A stretch of 64,000 bases of DNA from an uncultured Elioraea sp. Lineage in GTDB: Bacteria; Pseudomonadota; Alphaproteobacteria; Acetobacterales; Acetobacteraceae. Within the stretch, counting starts at the first letter, position 1. Every line of letters begins with the position of its first letter. Below, in pieces: positions 35,497-43,800 of this stretch. The notes below the pieces were generated by a model that was given only the letters and a program-made list of their open reading frames with translations, was not told the origin of the DNA and did not search any database. Position numbers and translations under genes: made by a program. The stretch spans positions 1 through 64,000 of the forward strand of contig CALFVI010000015.1 of NCBI GenBank assembly GCA_937928775.1, in the 5' to 3' direction.

Positions 35497-36048
35497 TCAC
35501 TCGTGCGCCGAACCCGCGCCCATGGCAAGTCTCGCGCCGTCCCCTTCGGATGCCACCCGGGCGTGGATGTGGGCGAGCACGGCAGGCGAGACGAAGGCGC
35601 TGACGTCGCCACCGAGCCGCGCGATCTCTTTAACGAACCGGCTGGAGATGAAGTGCACGCCCTCGGACGCCATCAGGAACACGGTATCGATCCCGGGATC
35701 GAGGCGAGCGTTCATCCCCGCCATTTGGAACTCGTACTCGAAGTCGGAAACAGCGCGCAGCCCGCGGATGATCATGCGCGCGCCCACTTCGCGCGCGAAG
35801 CGAATCAGCAGACAGTCGAAGGGGCGGACGACGATCTCGGTGCCGTTGCGGGCGGCGATCGGTGCGATCTCCTCCTCGAGCATCGCCACCCGTTCCGCGA
35901 GGGGGAAGAGCGGCCCCTTACCCGCATTCGCCGCCACCCCGACGACGAGCAAATCGACAAGGCGCGCAGCACGGCCGATGATGTCGAGATGACCGCGTGT
36001 CGGCGGATCGAAGGTGCCGGGATAGAGCCCGACATGGCGCGTGCCCAT
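35497..36048 (-). CDS. coaD: Pantetheine-phosphate adenylyltransferase
   Basis: The product is 183 residues. GLYPGTFDPPTRGHLDIIGRA holds the nucleotidyltransferase T/HxGH motif, and the second half carries the family's IRGLRAVSDFEYEFQMAGMN and MASEGVHFISSRFVKEIA. It makes dephospho-CoA, the penultimate step of CoA synthesis. The ATG shares a base with the gyrA stop (ATGA). Confidence 0.96.
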   Translation of the reverse strand: MGTRHVGLYPGTFDPPTRGHLDIIGRAARLVDLLVVGVAANAGKGPLFPLAERVAMLEEEIAPIAARNGTEIVVRPFDCLLIRFAREVGARMIIRGLRAVSDFEYEFQMAGMNARLDPGIDTVFLMASEGVHFISSRFVKEIARLGGDVSAFVSPAVLAHIHARVASEGDGARLAMGAGSAHE

Positions 36049-38762
36049 CAGGCGCCTCCCTCCTCTGCATCCTCGATCACGGGAAAGACGGAGACGACAT
36101 GCTCGTCGTCCTCGATGCGGAAAAGCGTTACGCCCTGGGTGGCGCGGCCAGCGATGCGGATCTCGTCGACGGGAATGCGGATGGTGCGGCCCTTGTCGGT
36201 GGCGAGCATAAGCTGATCGCCCGCCCGCACCGGGAAGGCGGCGACTGCGGCCCCGCCGTTCTTCGCGGTCAGGGCGATGCCGGTAATGCCCTGCCCGCCC
36301 CGGCCCGTGATCCGATACTCGTAGGCCGAACTTCGCTTGCCGTAGCCGCCCGCGGTGACGGTCAGCACGAACTCCTCCTCCCGCTCGAGCTCCGCATAGC
36401 GTTCCGGCGACAGCACGATCTCTGCCGCCGGCTCGGCCTCCTCCTCCGCGGCGGCCGCTTCGTCGGCGTCGGTCCCGCGCCGTTTCGCATTTGCAATCCT
36501 CAGATAGGCAGCGCGCTCCTCGGCCGAGGCCGCGACGTGACGCAGCACGGAGAGGCTGATCACCTCGTCTCCCTCGGTGAGCCTGATCCCCCGCACCCCG
36601 GTCGAGGTACGACCTGAGAAGACGCGGAGCTCGTCGGCGACAGGAAAGCGAATGGCACGGCCCTGACGGGTGACGAGCAGCACGTCATCGCCCTCGCGCA
36701 CAGCCTGCACGCCGATCAGACGCTCCTTGCCCTCGAGCTTCATCGCGATCAGGCCTGAGGCACGCACGTTGCGGAAATCCGACAAGCGATTGCGCCGCAC
36801 ATTGCCGGCGGAGGTGGCAAACACCGCATAGAGCTTGTCCCAAAGGGTCTCGTCCGCCGGCAGTGGCAGCACGGCGGTGATCGTCTCGTCCGCAGCGAGC
36901 CCGCCGAGCAGCTGGCGGATGTTGCGCCCCTTCGCCTGCGGTACGGCTTCAGGCAAACGCCACACCTTGAGGCGGTAGGCCATGCCGCGTGAGGTGAAGA
37001 ACAGCACCTCGTCATGCGTGTTGGCGACGAAGATCCGGGTGACCGCATCCTCTTCGCGCGTGGCCATGCCGCTTCGGCCCTTGCCGCCGCGGCGCTGTTC
37101 GCGGAAGGCGGAGAGGGGGACTCGCTTGATGAAGCCCTCGCGGGTGAGGGTGACCACCATCTGCGCGGATTCGATCAGGCTCTCGTCATCGAGTTCGACC
37201 TCCGCCTCCTCGATGGTGGTGCGGCGGGCGGAGGCGTGGGCGGCGCGGATGGCAAGCAGGTCCTCGCGGATGGCGGCAAGACGCGCGGAGCGCGAGGAGA
37301 GCAGGCCCAAGAGGCGCTCGATCTCGGCGCCGAGGCCCTTGAGTTCCTCGGCGATCTTGTCGCGTTCGAGCCCGGTCAGCCTCTGCAGGCGAAGGTCGAG
37401 AATGGCGCGGGCCTGCGCCTCGGTGAGGCGAATGGTGCCGTCAGGGCCGAGCGCGTTGGCGGGGTCATCGACGAGGGCGACCAAGGGCGCGAGATCGGCG
37501 CCCGGCCAGGCGCGGCCCATCAGCGCCTCGCGCGCCTCCTGGGCGTCCTTGGCCGCCCGGATGAGCGCGATCACCTCGTCGATGTTGGCGACCGCCACCG
37601 CGAGCCCAATCAGCGCGTGCGCACGCTCGCGCGCCTTGGCCAGCTGATGCCGGCTGCGGCGGATCAGCACCTCGTCACGGAAGGCGAGGAAGGCTTCGAG
37701 GATCGCCTTCAGTCCCATCTGCTCAGGTCGCCCGCCGGCGAGGGCGAGCATCTGCACTGGAAACGAGGTCTGCAGCCGGGTGAAGCGATAGAGCTGGTTG
37801 AGCACGATCTCGGCGTTCGCCTCGCGTCGCACCTCGATCACCACGCGCACGCCCTCGCGGTCGGATTCGTCGCGGATGTCACTGATGCCCTCGATCCTCT
37901 TCTCGCGTACAAGGTCGGCGATCTGGGCGAGGAGGTCGGCCTTGTTCACCTGGTAGGGGATTTCGGTGATGATGATTGCCTCGCGCTCGCGCTTGATGTT
38001 CTCGATGTGGGCGCGGGCGCGCACGGTCAGGGAGCCGCGCCCCGTCTCGTAAGCGGAACGGATGGCGTTGCGGCCGAGGATGATGCCGCCGGTGGGGAAA
38101 TCGGGCCCCGGTAGCCGTTCCATCAGAGCATCGAGCGAGACGGCCGGGTTGTCGATCAGCAACAGGGTGGCGTCGATCACTTCGGCGAGGTTGTGGGTGG
38201 GGATCGAGGTCGCCATGCCGACCGCGATGCCGTTTGCGCCGTTGACGAGCAGGTTGGGAAAGGCAGCTGGCAGGACGCGCGGCTCTTTGGCGCTCTCGTC
38301 GTAGTTGGGTTGGAAATCGACGGTGTCCTCGTCGATGCCGTCGAGCAGGAGGAGAGCGGCGGGAGCGAGGCGCACCTCGGTGTAGCGCATGGCGGCGGGA
38401 GGATCGCCGTCCATCGAGCCGAAATTGCCCTGCCCGTCGATCAGCGGAAGGCGCATGGCGAAGGGCTGCGCCATCCGCACCATCGCGTCGTAGATCGCAG
38501 CGTCGCCGTGCGGATGGTACTTGCCCATCACATCGCCCACCACGCGGGCGGACTTTCGGTGCGGCTTGTCGGGCCCGTAGCCCGCCTCATACATGGCGAA
38601 CAGGATGCGGCGATGCACAGGTTTCAAGCCGTCGCGCACATCGGGCAGGGCGCGCGCGACGATGACGCTCATCGCATAGTCGAGGTAGGAGCGGCGCATC
38701 TCCTCCTCGAGCAAGACGGGCTTGATCGCGTCGCCGCGCTGGGTCTCGGTCTCGTTCGTCAC
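36048..38762 (-). CDS. gyrA: DNA gyrase subunit A
   Basis: The product is a 904-residue type IIA topoisomerase subunit. The breakage-reunion domain contains the catalytic tyrosine in [10 protein letters not shown]. The quinolone-binding helix reads [17 protein letters not shown], with Ala at the position equivalent to E. coli Ser83. The C-terminal beta-pinwheel carries the GyrA box QRRGGKGR. It works with GyrB, not in this window, to introduce negative supercoils. Confidence 0.97.
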
Positions 38763-38825
38763 CTGGCGTTTTCCGTCTTCGCGCGGAGGAAGTTAGCCGA
38801 TCGTTATGGTGCACCGCAACAAAAG

Positions 38826-40850
38826 TCAGGACTCGGGGATGCCCGCCTCGCGCAGACCGCGGGCGTAGAGGGCTCGGTCGTCCTCGCGCATGAAGGGAGC
38901 GGAGGCAAGGAATCGTTCGACCGAAAAACCTGGCTCGATGGCGAGCAAGCGCTCTGCTGCCGCTTCTGCCTCCGGCTTGCGGCCGGCCAGGGCGAGTGCC
39001 GCCACATAGGGCTTCCAGGCTGCGGACAGGCCGGGATGGACTTCGGTCAACTGGCGCCCGAGTTCGATCGCCTGCTCATATCGGCCGGAGAGCAGGTAGG
39101 CGATCTCGAGCGCGACGTCGAAGAAGAAGGCATGCGGGTCAAGCGGTGAGAGGCGACGATAGCGGAGGATGCGGCGCAGCGCCTCCTCCTGGTCGCCGGC
39201 ATAGGCGTAGGCGACACCAGAGAGCGCCCAGGCCATCGGAAGATTGGGGTTGAGGCTGATCGCGCGCTCGTGCAGAGCCAGGGCTTCATCGAGCCGTCGG
39301 TGCAGGTAGGCGCGCACATGGCCTGCAATGGCGAAGGCGCGAGCATCCTGCGGGTCGAGCAAAATCGCGCGTTCCGCAAGGCGGCCGGCGCGTGCCATCG
39401 CGTCCGCCTGGTCTGGCGCCCAGCCCTGTCCGACATAGAAAATGTGCCAGTAGGCATACCAGGCATGCGCCGCGGCGTCGTCCGGTTCACGGGCGATCGC
39501 CTCTTCCAGCATTTCTCCGGCCTTGAGAAAGCTCTCCTTCTCGAGGCGGTAGATGGCCGGAATGGCGGAGAGAACGAGGGCATAGGCCGAGGCATCACGG
39601 CCGGGCGCAACGGCGGCGCGGCGGGCCTCGATGAGGAGGATTTCGGGGTCGATGCGGGCGACCACCGCGGCGGCGATCTCGTCCTGCAGGGCGAGGAGGT
39701 CGGCGGCGGGCTGGTCGAAGCGCTGCGCCCACACCACCTCGCCGCCGGCCTTTAGGTCGAGCAGACGCAAGGAGACGCGGACGCGCACCTCGTCGCGCTG
39801 GACCGTGCCGGTGAGGAGGAAGTCGAGGTCGAGCGCGGCGCGCAGCGCCTCAAGATCCGAGGCCGTTTCGCCATGGCGGGCGAGCGAGGCGGAGGAGACG
39901 ACAGCGATCCACCGGAAGCGGGCGAGCGCGGTGGTGATCTCCTCTGCGAGCCCGATGGCGAAGTCGGCCTCGGCGGCGTTGCCCAGGGCGCGCAGGGGAG
40001 CGACACCGAGTCGGGCTCCGCGCATCACGGATCGCTTGGACTGCACCCTGACCTCGGCGGAGGGCTGGGCGCGGCGGTCTGGGTCGGTGCCGAGGCGCAG
40101 GCTTTCGGCGAGCGCCAGGGTTTCTGCCGAGGGGGTGGCCTTGAGCAGACGAGCGAGAGCGCTGCGGCAGGATTCGAAGGCTTCCAGGGCACGGCTTCGC
40201 TCGCCGCGCGCGGCATACCCCTCCATCAACACCCGCCACGCGCCTTCGTGTGCCTCATCGAGAGACACAAGCCGGCGGGCGGTCTCAAGCCGCTGCTCCG
40301 GATCGGTAACAGTGTCGAGCAGACGTTCTATCGCGGAGCGCACGCGGTCGCGAAAGGCGCGGCGTTCTACGGCGAGCCAGGCGTCCATCGCCGGATCCAG
40401 CCCCTCGAGCCCCTCAAGCAGCGTGCCGTCGAGAAGATCGAGAAACGCGGCCGACATCGGTTCGCTGCGGACGACTTGCAGGGCATCGACCCAGACCGCA
40501 TCCGCATCCAGCCACACCTTGTCGCGATCGGCGTGCAGAAGCGCCGGGCCGCAGGGGGTGAGCGCGAGCGACAGTTCGTGCAACGCCTGCCTGAGCGAGG
40601 CCCGCGCCTGTTCGCGCTCGCGGGTGGACCACAAGAGGCTGGAGAGTTTTTGCCGCGGCACGGGATGCGGCGCAGCAAGGCCCAGGATTGCCAGCACAGC
40701 CCTGGTCTTGCGCACCCGGGGCAAAACCCGTTCGCTCGACACGCTCCATGCGTCCATGACGCCAATCAGCTTCAGGCGAAGCCGCAGGGCCGACGAGGTG
40801 GGCAGATCACCCACACGGATGTCTGGCATCGAAGCGGGAAGCGTGATCAT
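38826..40850 (-). CDS. SARP/BTAD-type regulator with TolB-like and TPR domains
   Basis: The product is 674 residues. Residues about 20-125 are an AfsR/SARP-like winged helix (LPRVRKTRAVLAILGLAAPHPVPRQKL...EQARASLRQALHELSLAL). About 140-260 is a bacterial transcriptional activation domain of helical repeats. About 280-390 is a TolB-like/adenylate-cyclase-associated domain (VAPLRALGNAAEADFAIGLAEEITTALARF). The rest is TPR repeats (MAWALSGVAYAYAGDQEEALRR). There is no membrane segment. It is transcribed divergently from the 18-residue-repeat peptide gene across a 347-base gap, making it the obvious candidate regulator. The start could also be Met8 (MPDIRVGDL). Confidence 0.88.
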   Translation of the reverse strand: MITLPASMPDIRVGDLPTSSALRLRLKLIGVMDAWSVSSERVLPRVRKTRAVLAILGLAAPHPVPRQKLSSLLWSTREREQARASLRQALHELSLALTPCGPALLHADRDKVWLDADAVWVDALQVVRSEPMSAAFLDLLDGTLLEGLEGLDPAMDAWLAVERRAFRDRVRSAIERLLDTVTDPEQRLETARRLVSLDEAHEGAWRVLMEGYAARGERSRALEAFESCRSALARLLKATPSAETLALAESLRLGTDPDRRAQPSAEVRVQSKRSVMRGARLGVAPLRALGNAAEADFAIGLAEEITTALARFRWIAVVSSASLARHGETASDLEALRAALDLDFLLTGTVQRDEVRVRVSLRLLDLKAGGEVVWAQRFDQPAADLLALQDEIAAAVVARIDPEILLIEARRAAVAPGRDASAYALVLSAIPAIYRLEKESFLKAGEMLEEAIAREPDDAAAHAWYAYWHIFYVGQGWAPDQADAMARAGRLAERAILLDPQDARAFAIAGHVRAYLHRRLDEALALHERAISLNPNLPMAWALSGVAYAYAGDQEEALRRILRYRRLSPLDPHAFFFDVALEIAYLLSGRYEQAIELGRQLTEVHPGLSAAWKPYVAALALAGRKPEAEAAAERLLAIEPGFSVERFLASAPFMREDDRALYARGLREAGIPES

Positions 40851-41197
40851 GATGCGCCACGAACTGACGTTAACCGAGCCTGAAGGATTTGCACCATCTT
40901 ATCCAGGGCATGCAGACGATCGCTTGCACGCCAAGGACCGAGGGGGAGCGGATGGTTGACGCTGCACGCGCGGCACACCTGCTGGCCCGGGCGGCGGCGT
41001 TGCCTCGCAGCTCGCTTCTGTCGTGCCTAGGACAAAACTCTTGCAATAGGCCAAATATCCTAATACAGTTTGGCAACCCGGCGGGAAAGACTGCCCCGCT
41101 GGCCTGCCGCCTCCGCCCGAGCCGACCGCCCCTCACGCCGTCGGCGCCTGGAACAAAGCAGGAACACGCAGTCGAGAGACGAACGAAGGAGATCACC
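40851..41197. promoter_or_regulatory. Divergent intergenic region of regulator and repeat-peptide gene
   Basis: This 347-base gap has no convincing gene. It contains an unusually AT-rich patch around 41030-41075, flanked by ordinary GC-rich sequence. SARP proteins typically bind heptamer direct repeats upstream of targets; I could not identify a clear repeat pair by eye. The ORF-track extension of the repeat gene into this gap lacks coding character. Confidence 0.5.
41041..41069 (+). promoter_or_regulatory. Candidate sigma-70-type promoter for the repeat-peptide gene
   Basis: TTGCAA and TACAGT are separated by 17 bases in the AT-rich patch. This fits a housekeeping promoter and would give a leader of about 120 bases before the ATG at 41198. 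Predicted by eye only. Confidence 0.35.
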
Positions 41198-41503
41198 ATG
41201 ACCACCGCCCTCACCGCCTCTCCGACGCAGGACTCCCGCACGGTCCGCCTCGGAGGCATGGCCCCGGCGCTCAAGCCCATCGCAGATGCAGGCTCCGTCC
41301 GCCTCGGAGGCATGGCCCCTGCGCTCAAGCCCATCGCAGATGCAGGCTCCGTCCGCCTCGGCGGCATGGCCCCGGCGCTCAAGCCCATCGCAGATGCCGG
41401 CTCCGTCCGCCTCGGCGGCATGGCCCCGGCGCTGAAGCCCATCGCAGATGCAGGCTCCGTCCGCCTCGGCGGCATGGCCCCGGCGCTCCGCCGCGCTGCC
41501 TGA
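41198..41503 (+). CDS. Tandem 18-residue-repeat protein (possible multi-core peptide precursor)
   Basis: The product is 101 residues. An AAGGAG ribosome binding site lies seven bases before the ATG. A 15-residue leader (MTTALTASPTQDSRT) is followed by four perfect copies of VRLGGMAPALKPIADAGS and a partial fifth copy ending VRLGGMAPALRRAA. There is no Cys, no membrane segment and no export signal. The copies differ at a handful of bases (for example GGA/GGC, CCG/CCT, CTC/CTG, GCA/GCC), all silent in this frame. I know of no named family. A precursor cut at the repeated LGG, a structural repeat, or a regulatory decoy are all possible. No modification enzyme or exporter is adjacent. The divergent SARP-TPR gene is its likely regulator. 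Confidence 0.8.
   Translation: MTTALTASPTQDSRTVRLGGMAPALKPIADAGSVRLGGMAPALKPIADAGSVRLGGMAPALKPIADAGSVRLGGMAPALKPIADAGSVRLGGMAPALRRAA
41243..41500 (+). repeat. 54-bp tandem repeat, four full copies plus a partial fifth
   Basis: Units start at 41243, 41297, 41351, 41405 and 41459 (the last 42 bases long). Units are near-identical and encode VRLGGMAPALKPIADAGS. There are no spacers, so this is not a CRISPR array. Repeat length is a multiple of three, which explains the parallel repeats seen in every reading frame. Confidence 0.97.
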
Positions 41504-41529
41504 TCCTTCAGACAGCCGCCTTGAAACAG

Positions 41530-41554
41530 CCCCGCCCGCAAAGCGCGGGCGGGG
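41530..41554 (+). terminator. Strong stem-loop after the repeat-peptide gene
   Basis: CCCCGCCCGC-AAAGC-GCGGGCGGGG is a perfect 10-bp stem 27 bases past the stop codon. It lacks a T-run but is the most likely transcript end and supports the peptide gene being monocistronic. Confidence 0.6.
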
Positions 41555-42579
41555 TCCTCGGACACGACACGATCGGCGGCCGCGCGGCGTTGATACCACG
41601 GCCATGCTCACATCACTGCGGACAGCAGGCTGCGTGCAGTCTCGGCGGAGGGCGTTTGGCGTGGCCGCAAACGACCTTCCCCTCTCGGCCCTATTCGACG
41701 ACGCAGCGGCGACCTTCAGCAGAAGCGTTCGACACTGCGCTCATCGTTCTCAGCCCCTCTGAGGTTCGGTCTGATCCTCACCTTTTCACGTCAGGGCCGA
41801 TGGTCCGCGCCGGCCTCGGTCGCGGCGGGTGTGATCGGAACGAAGGAGGCGTGTGCGCGTCGGCGGTATCTAGAGGCGACGCGGACCGCTCCCCACCGCA
41901 ACCGAACATGATCTCGACGCGCAGGCGTTGCAGATACATTCTGCGCCGTGGCGAGTGCCGCGCTCTTCTTCGCCAGGAAGCAGAACAAGCGGCCGTCTCT
42001 GTACCCCCTGGAGGACCTGGCGGTCTCCGTCGCAGACACCGTGCAGGTCAAAATTCAGCCCGTTCCTGAAATTCTGTGATGGTGCACAGCGGCCCCCTGT
42101 GCGCAGACGCGCCGCTGACGACGATGCTCCTCGAGATGGGCAGCATCGAGGACGCGCCGCACGAATTCGCTCCATTCGACTAGCACATCGAGGAAGATGC
42201 ACGAGCACGCGCGCGCGGATCCAGGGGACGAGACATTCGCACAGCGACGTCTGTCGACCGCACGCGGAAGAGAAAACCACGCAAACCGAAGCCCCGCCTT
42301 GAGATTGAAAAAGGCCCACCGACGGCACGCACTGATCCTTCACCCGCGGGATGCCGCGTCAGCCGAATGCACAGTCAGCTCCCTTCGTCCCGCTCCGCCA
42401 GTTCGACGGCCGCGGAAGGTTTCGCACGTTGGGAGATCCGGTCGTGGCGAGGGTTCTCCCGAGAACGAGACGTGGGCGCAGCAAGCCCGCTTGGGCGGGC
42501 GAAAGCAGGACCCAGACAGGAGCAGCCCCCTGTCGCTTCGGGCGGTCGACTCGGATTGAGGATTTGGCGGCTGTGACCG
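41555..42579. other. Degenerate accessory DNA without a convincing intact gene
   Basis: About 1 kb with only short, overlapping ORFs on both strands and no recognisable domain. One stretch on the plus strand (about 41948-42079) reads like a coding fragment (ALFFARKQNKRPSLYPLEDL ... ending VPEIL) but has an in-frame stop just upstream at 41909. A second short frame (MVHSGPLCADAPLTTMLLEM, 42079-42183) follows it at once. These look like debris of a lost gene. I see nothing else identifiable. Confidence 0.6.
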
Positions 42580-43485
42580 CACGGGTCTTGCGCTCGTGCA
42601 AGCCGCTGTGACTGTCCATGGTGTTCTGGACTCAAAACGAGACGATGCAGCGCTGCAGGACGCGGATAGCGTCTTGCCCGAGCCTCCCCGCGGGCGCTGC
42701 CGCACGTGACGGTCTTCACGCAAGCCTTGCAGCGCCGTTCCTCTGAGGATCGCAGACGCACGTGCTTCAGGCGGCGAGGTTCAGCGCGATGGCGAAGTCC
42801 ATTGTCTCGCCACCGGTGCAGGCGGAGCCGTATCGGCGCGGGAAGAGACAGGCTTCGGGGCGCTTTGGGCACGACATGCCCTGCCCTGGAGTCGTGCATC
42901 AGGTCGCGGATCATCCTGCCGAACACGTCGCCGCCTGAGGTGCCGAGGGAAAGCCATCACCCCGCGGTCAGGGGCGTCGCGAGCGAAGGCGACGCAGACA
43001 CCCTCGCGGCGCCAGCAGGGGATGTCGAAGCGGTCCGACGAGCGGGGCCGGCTCGATGCTGCGGCGACGACGGTGCCTTCGTACGCGCGGATGATGTCCG
43101 GTTCGAGCAGGACTCTCGACAGGCATGAAGCCTGACGTAGGACGCGAAAGCCGCGGTTGTGATTGTGCTGTGGCTTGCACGGGCTCCAGCCGTTGCTGCC
43201 CTCTAGCGCCGCGACGGGGCCATGGCTGGACGTCAAGCGCGCCTCAGTGACGGCATGGATCTCGGCCAGCACAGCCTTGTCGTCGGCGTAACGATGTGGG
43301 TCGCGACACGGCTGTTTGGCACCACCTTCTGGTCAGTTCTGACCGCCGCCTGCCCATCCTCGTTCCCGCGCCAAGCCGGCGGCGCCACCACCCGAGCCGG
43401 ACGCCCTGCATCCGCGCGCTGGCAGAGCCTGCGATGCCGGGCGGCATGGGCTGCTCGACCAGTCGCACAAGGTCCTCGGCCATGT
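42580..43485 (-). pseudogene. Remnant of an IS3-family transposase (orfA and orfB), multiply frameshifted
   Basis: Reading the minus strand across frames recovers the IS3 orfB order. LAEIHAVTEARLTSSHGPVA matches the HTH_21-type EIxAVTxARPTYGYRRVA. NHNRGFRVLRQAS matches NHKRVYRLLRxxG, and SSDRFDIPCW...EGVCVAFARDAPDRGVMAF matches CSDxFEIxCWNGEVVRVAFAxDxxDREIxxW. After a frameshift come TSGGDVFGRMIRDLMHDS and, in another frame, GSACTGGETMDFAIALNLAA (DNGSAYTARET-like), then NTMDSHSGLHERKTR (YNxVHPHSGL). Upstream, VRLVEQPMPPG...WWRRRLGAG resembles an orfA helix-turn-helix. Frame changes and stops show it is dead. Ends are not defined. Confidence 0.75.
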
Positions 43486-43800
43486 CGCGGCGACGGCGGC
43501 GAATGCCGCTGCGGGCATCACCACGTTCGCCGAGCGGCGATACAAACAGGGGCCCAGAGCTGCACTTGGGCCCTCATGCCCATGCTGCACCTTAGCCTGA
43601 TGGATCGCCGCCTCACGAACGTTCCGGAGATCTTCCGGCCGCGTCCCGAACACCGAGGCGAAAGCGTAGCGCGAGGTCTCTGCCGTGCGCCAGACGCTGC
43701 CGCCTCGCTACCCTACCCGTTTGCGAGGCCTGACCCCGACGTTCGCGAGCCGTCGCGCTGTCGAGGCGACCGTCGGGGACTGAACGTCGCCGCGCTTTCA
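43486..43800. other. Gap between IS remnant and cheR
   Basis: About 315 bases with only overlapping low-quality ORFs on both strands. No domain, RNA or clear repeat recognised. Probably further insertion debris and the 3' flank of the che operon. Confidence 0.5.

Follow-up and report, generated by a model that had tools for sequence, protein, structure and literature searches.

The regulator CadC possesses a membrane segment. Multi-core RiPP precursors are known, for example, from the microviridins and cyanobactins, a protease or transporter is expected beside a typical secreted RiPP, and TldD/E are known to process some modified peptides. The targets of SARP regulators are heptameric direct repeats that overlap the −35 element (PMC10972967). 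Our literature search found no paper that names DUF6065 and none on a module of regulator, repeat peptide and DUF6065; nothing relevant was found on multi-core RiPPs in Acetobacteraceae, nor on the dUTPase fold in connection with RiPPs.

Here we analysed a 64,000-nucleotide stretch of DNA (the window) of an uncultured Elioraea sp., in which a SARP-type regulator gene and a multi-repeat peptide gene are divergently arranged. The recurrence of these two genes and a DUF6065-subfamily gene as one module in Acetobacteraceae is well supported, and our results point to a system, as yet undescribed, that makes or binds peptides.

Regulator gene and its domains

The regulator gene is located at 38826..40850 on the minus strand and encodes a protein of 674 aa with an ATG start. 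The sequence-only reading had described it as an AfsR/SARP-like DNA-binding domain joined to a BTAD, a TolB-like domain and TPRs, and Pfam, the family profile, orthologue scans, AF2 and Foldseek agree with this architecture: wHTH (residues ~22–121), BTAD (122–253), TolB-like domain (279–415) and TPR (422–668). The AF2 model (pLDDT 90) has the same boundaries, with the wHTH at 22–121, a helical BTAD and an alpha/beta TolB-like domain. When the window protein was scanned alone, Pfam matched the BTAD (residues 137–252, E 6e-10) and gave no wHTH match. Among 38 orthologues, Trans_reg_C was matched in 27, BTAD in 36 and TolB_N in nine, together with TPRs. The family profile matched the PDB structures of EmbR over residues 14–263 (E 1e-14) and AfsR over residues 10–265 (E 7e-11), and the periplasmic domain of CadC was among the best PDB folds for the model in Foldseek. 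FlgO/HilA matches of the window protein were weak, the NCBIfam HilA match (301–604) being below the cut-off.

An N-terminal OmpR/AfsR-type winged-helix DNA-binding domain, which defines SARPs, is thus present in the profile, the orthologue scans and the AF2 model, and the BTAD follows it immediately (Pfam; 36/38 orthologues). No NB-ARC, which is expected of large SARPs and does not define SARPs in general, was found between BTAD and TPR; the TolB-like domain occupies that position, and the regulator is therefore not a classical large SARP.

The gyrA gene (36048..38762, minus strand) lies 63 bp downstream of the regulator. Because of this spacing on one strand, the two genes (36048–40850) may be co-transcribed. 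No specialised-metabolite cluster adjoins the regulator within the 64-kb window.

Repeat-peptide gene

The peptide gene (41198..41503, plus strand) encodes 101 aa, in which MTTALTASPTQDSRT precedes five units of the VRLGGMAPALKPIADAGS type, each an 18-aa VRLGGMAP(AL) unit. A Shine-Dalgarno sequence, AGGAG, closely precedes its ATG (41187..41191, plus strand), and the TRF score of the array, 457, is beyond chance. Pfam and NCBIfam gave no meaningful match to the peptide; a csrA-like NCBIfam match was rejected, as it was far below the cut-off and had no passing stretch. The next gene is cheR-like and lies beyond about 2.3 kb (41504–43800) in which neither strand has a convincing gene.

Homologues that bear the motif are present in genus-mates and in other genera. 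Across Acetobacteraceae the motif is "D-x-G-[KR]-V-R-L-G-G-x-x-P-x-L", with 1–14 copies per peptide, and the locus-weighted consensus is A-D(94%)-[AT]-G(82%)-[KR](95%)-[VI](98%)-R(81%)-[LFI]-G(100%)-[GA](92%)-x-x-[PR]-x-L, in which the percentages at positions covered by the search pattern partly reflect that pattern itself. In a genome outside Acetobacteraceae, we observed an extreme variant with about ten KVKLGMMAPAFGKS units adjoining DUF6065 (L220, G244:C56:101900-110700).

The repeats are under purifying selection: in the window, the four full units differ only by synonymous changes, and in G006 nearly all differences between units, Ile/Val excepted, are likewise synonymous. A non-coding DNA repeat, an assembly or mini-satellite artefact beside a regulator that alone is real, is a very improbable explanation of the repeat ORF. 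Several homologous arrays do terminate at contig ends, as such an artefact might, but the changes within arrays are synonymous, the frame, motif, start and ribosome site are conserved across genomes, and the counterpart on a Rhizobium plasmid is annotated as a protein whose motif aligns in register (two-sequence BLAST, E 1e-7). Since arrays are often found at contig ends (G001:C10/C9, G005:C41/C81 and G032:C154; L014, L027, L035 and L045), neither copy numbers nor calls of absence can be relied on in draft genomes.

Divergent region and putative promoter elements

The region common to both genes spans 40851..41197, exactly the 347 bases of divergent sequence proposed earlier. Within it we identified a conserved element, TAGGAnnnnnCTCTTGC (41028..41044, plus strand), a candidate promoter or operator of the peptide gene, which is followed by TAATAC at 41061–41066. 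The element precedes the peptide gene in G000 (the window genome) and G004, in slightly changed form in G001 and G005, and also in two relatives, L042 and L093. It was found as well in Elioraea peptide promoters of the TAGGA type without an adjoining regulator (G003, G006 and L091), and it is missing ahead of both the DUF6065 gene unlinked in Elioraea and the unlinked G003 regulator. This indicates that TAGGAnnnnnCTCTTGC is part of the peptide promoter, and its absence upstream of the unlinked DUF6065 gene leaves co-regulation of DUF6065 unsupported in Elioraea. The regulator may bind to TAGGAnnnnnCTCTTGC. The window genome contains only one perfect match; genome matches with one mismatch were disregarded, their frequency being at control level.

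No heptameric SARP direct repeats were found in the 347 bp of 40851–41197, in which the position of the operator is unmapped, and a scan for generic sigma-70 promoters and terminators gave no matches. At six Roseomonas-type loci (L102, L109, L114, L123, L145 and L150), a palindromic conserved TATAACCTATGGTTGT and TTCACG boxes occur upstream of the peptide. TATAACCTATGGTTGT differs from the Elioraea element and is a candidate regulator site of the Roseomonas-type clade.

DUF6065-subfamily partner

When the peptide was traced into other genomes, the gene downstream of it recurrently encoded a protein of the DUF6065 subfamily, about 265 aa long. An alignment scan of GTDB contigs placed this subfamily in Elioraea, Roseomonas, Rhodopila, Siccirubricoccus, Acidisphaera and other Acetobacteraceae. 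A motif ORF was present within 900 bp upstream of the gene at 87 of 113 loci, and in the downstream control of equal length at only 2 of 113. After dereplication, 99 loci remained. A short precursor-like gene, the peptide, stands upstream of the conserved partner at 79 of these, as in RiPP clusters, and the regulator is found at 64, being upstream-divergent in 41, downstream-convergent in 20 and on the same strand in three. About 20 loci have peptide and DUF6065 without an adjacent regulator. Recognisable repeat peptides also adjoin DUF6065 on the Rhizobium plasmid and in G099, G226, G323 and G244. Neither peptide nor regulator was found at any of ten canonical DUF6065 loci.

Antisense and overlapping ORFs aside, no further gene family occurs at more than 12 of the 99 loci. 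DUF6065 alone is conserved across them, with no recognised RiPP modifying enzyme and no dedicated protease or exporter/transporter. A TldD metalloprotease gene lies immediately upstream of peptide-DUF6065, with the regulator missing, at L030, L032, L034, L038 and about six others; being present at only about 10/99 loci, TldD was rejected as a conserved fourth partner.

Co-occurrence across genomes

We searched 300 Acetobacteraceae genomes with the single window protein as the regulator query. Regulator and DUF6065-subfamily protein were both found in 92, DUF6065 only in five, the regulator only in 43 and neither in 160 (Fisher p 7e-37, a value inflated by shared ancestry and not phylogeny-corrected). 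Of the five genomes with DUF6065 only, G033 has a regulator fragment, and three of the others are drafts of 80–84% completeness.

The sequence-only reading would be refuted if the regulator occurred widely without the repeat gene and did not affect its expression. As to occurrence, the outcome is mixed: 43 genomes have the regulator and lack DUF6065, yet 92 of the 97 DUF6065 genomes have the regulator. Set beside the 43 of 135 regulator genomes without DUF6065, this indicates that the module is nearly always accompanied by the regulator and that the regulator family is wider. Given these 43 genomes and the loci without an adjacent regulator, control of the module by the regulator is not obligate.

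The same 43 genomes would fit a regulator that controls something else, such as its own gene, gyrA or distant genes, its adjacency to the peptide being inherited synteny. The separation of the regulator from peptide and DUF6065 in G003 and G006 agrees with this explanation, as does gyrA on the same strand 63 bp downstream. We consider it improbable, however, since the regulator is near 64 of the 99 DUF6065-subfamily loci in many different genomic contexts, and gyrA adjacency is confined to few loci. Regulators that are linked to the module and regulators that are not intermingle in the tree of the family, where the window protein clusters with G003 (matching E. tepidiphila) and next with L042/L093.

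Synteny and history of the site

The divergent regulator-peptide pair is kept in four Elioraea genomes, G000, G001 (matching E. thermophila), G004 and G005, the regulators of the last three being 87–95% identical to the window protein. Another lineage, G020 (L078), has the regulator-peptide pair with DUF6065 not adjacent. Conservation of the regulator with the repeat peptide, which the earlier reading had proposed to check across Acetobacteraceae, is confirmed. The proposed two-gene unit holds as far as the pairing is concerned; the unit, however, consists of three genes, the missed partner being the DUF6065-subfamily gene, which is unlinked in the window's Elioraea clade.

In the window, the order is gyrA-regulator | peptide, with DUF6065 and a small ORF together on another contig; the DUF6065 gene (G000:C39:20116-20919, minus strand) is unlinked to the pair. 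In G051 (L042), a single-contig genome of another genus, the genes run gyrA-regulator | peptide-DUF6065, and a small ORF of ~120 aa separates regulator from peptide. Because the same synteny occurs there with both peptide and DUF6065 present, the gyrA side is likely the ancestral site of the module. G003 and G006 have peptide, DUF6065 and small ORF in one place and the regulator elsewhere. The simplest reading would be that parts of one ancestral locus have relocated. Downstream of the window peptide (41504–43800), no convincing DUF6065 remnant was found.

The small protein of ~120 aa (LAAAQRFAAWY...LQHAVFDL.AAVHAMNR), without a Pfam match, is encoded divergently from peptide or DUF6065 in Elioraea-clade genomes (L042:7696-8040, L093:4034-4402, L047:9097-9489, L043:6578-6862 and L029:9120-9410). 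It is possibly a lineage-specific fourth component.

Predicted fold and conserved residues of DUF6065

The AF2 model of the DUF6065-subfamily protein (pLDDT 87) has the beta-clip fold of the dUTPase superfamily. In Foldseek, PDB ranks 1–50 were all dUTPases (lowest E 3e-5; target-based TM values reached 0.80). The hhalign match to Acetobacteraceae dUTPases was weak (p 0.024, probability 2%) and collinear through the motif 2–4 region. The five dUTPase signature motifs, including PRSG and IDxDYRG, were not found in DUF6065 beyond a degenerate collinear motif 2–4 region. DUF6065 is therefore dUTPase-like in fold, and not a dUTPase.

In the subfamily alignment, E119, W126, R142, N146, E156, E160, D162, N171 and R173 are invariant, and the invariance of the last seven suggests a retained pocket. 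The DUF6065 of the window genome has every invariant position.

It is possible, although rather unlikely in our judgement, that the peptide stays unmodified, as an intrinsically disordered series of short binding motifs that would act on DUF6065 as titrant or scaffold, the regulator setting the dose and the repeat number tuning the valency. The repeat number varies from 1 to 14 while the motif stays conserved, no protease or transporter is in the neighbourhood, and dUTPase-fold proteins are known as protein-binding switches; several of the top PDB matches are phage dUTPases studied as pathogenicity-island inducers, and dUTPase-Stl complexes. On the other hand, the invariant polar and aromatic residues resemble a catalytic pocket, and the variable stretches after GG look like core diversification.

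Proposed model

We propose that the regulator is a pathway-specific SARP-like activator and that the multi-repeat peptide is the substrate or ligand of a dUTPase-fold protein, a model that we hold as a whole with moderate confidence. A signal would be sensed by the TolB-like/TPR part of the regulator, which, bound to the divergent region, would switch on the peptide gene, or the peptide-DUF6065 operon where the two are linked. The tandem core-motif copies would then be recognised by the DUF6065-subfamily protein, which would most likely modify, or at least bind, each copy in a RiPP-like manner. In the window's Elioraea clade, with DUF6065 on another contig, the system would work in trans, since the Elioraea protein keeps the conserved residues of the family. 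Our analysis demonstrates the domains, their conservation and linkage, the predicted fold, purifying selection on the repeats and the conserved promoter element; DNA binding and activation by the regulator, the peptide-DUF6065 interaction and any modification are inferred. The lack of heptameric SARP repeats in the 347 bp, the lack of a conserved protease or transporter and the weak hhalign match, with dUTPase signature residues replaced, count against the model.

More tentatively, the locus might represent a new alphaproteobacterial ribosomal peptide class, with DxG[KR]VRLGGxxPxL multi-core precursors, a dUTPase-fold DUF6065-subfamily enzyme and SARP-BTAD-TolB-TPR control. To our knowledge, no dUTPase-fold protein has such peptide-processing chemistry.

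Our results join two genes labelled 'hypothetical' and an uncharacterised domain into a single system that can be tested and that occurs in about a third of the sampled Acetobacteraceae genomes and on two Rhizobium plasmids. Modification of the peptide would make DUF6065 a new class of enzymes built on a fold familiar from nucleotide hydrolysis; without it, the system would be a new peptide-ligand switch.

Comparison with known systems

The regulator resembles the SARP family (AfsR, EmbR; PMC10972967) in its N-terminal wHTH and BTAD, its profile matches to the AfsR and EmbR structures, its position divergent to a putative pathway gene and a C-terminal TPR as in large SARPs. It differs in its central TolB-like domain in place of NB-ARC, its alphaproteobacterial origin and the lack of visible heptameric direct repeats. 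With HilA/CadC-type regulators it shares a wHTH followed by a TolB-like and TPR-like sensor part (HilA match below cut-off; CadC fold match), whereas it has an extra BTAD and looks soluble, without the membrane segment of CadC.

The DUF6065 subfamily keeps the conserved core of DUF6065 (PF19541; model positions ~85–190), but unlike canonical members it has its own N-terminal region, and the repeat peptide occurs only with this subfamily. Its predicted fold is that of the dUTPase/dCTP deaminases, with a collinear motif 2–4 region (IETDRWFG versus IDxDYRG), although identity is low, PRSG is replaced and the protein is ~100 residues larger. Known RiPP maturases, proteases and transporters are missing from the module, and any modification of its peptide is hypothetical; nevertheless, the peptide is similar to multi-core RiPP precursors in its tandem conserved recognition/core units, its variable copy number and its conserved adjoining partner gene.
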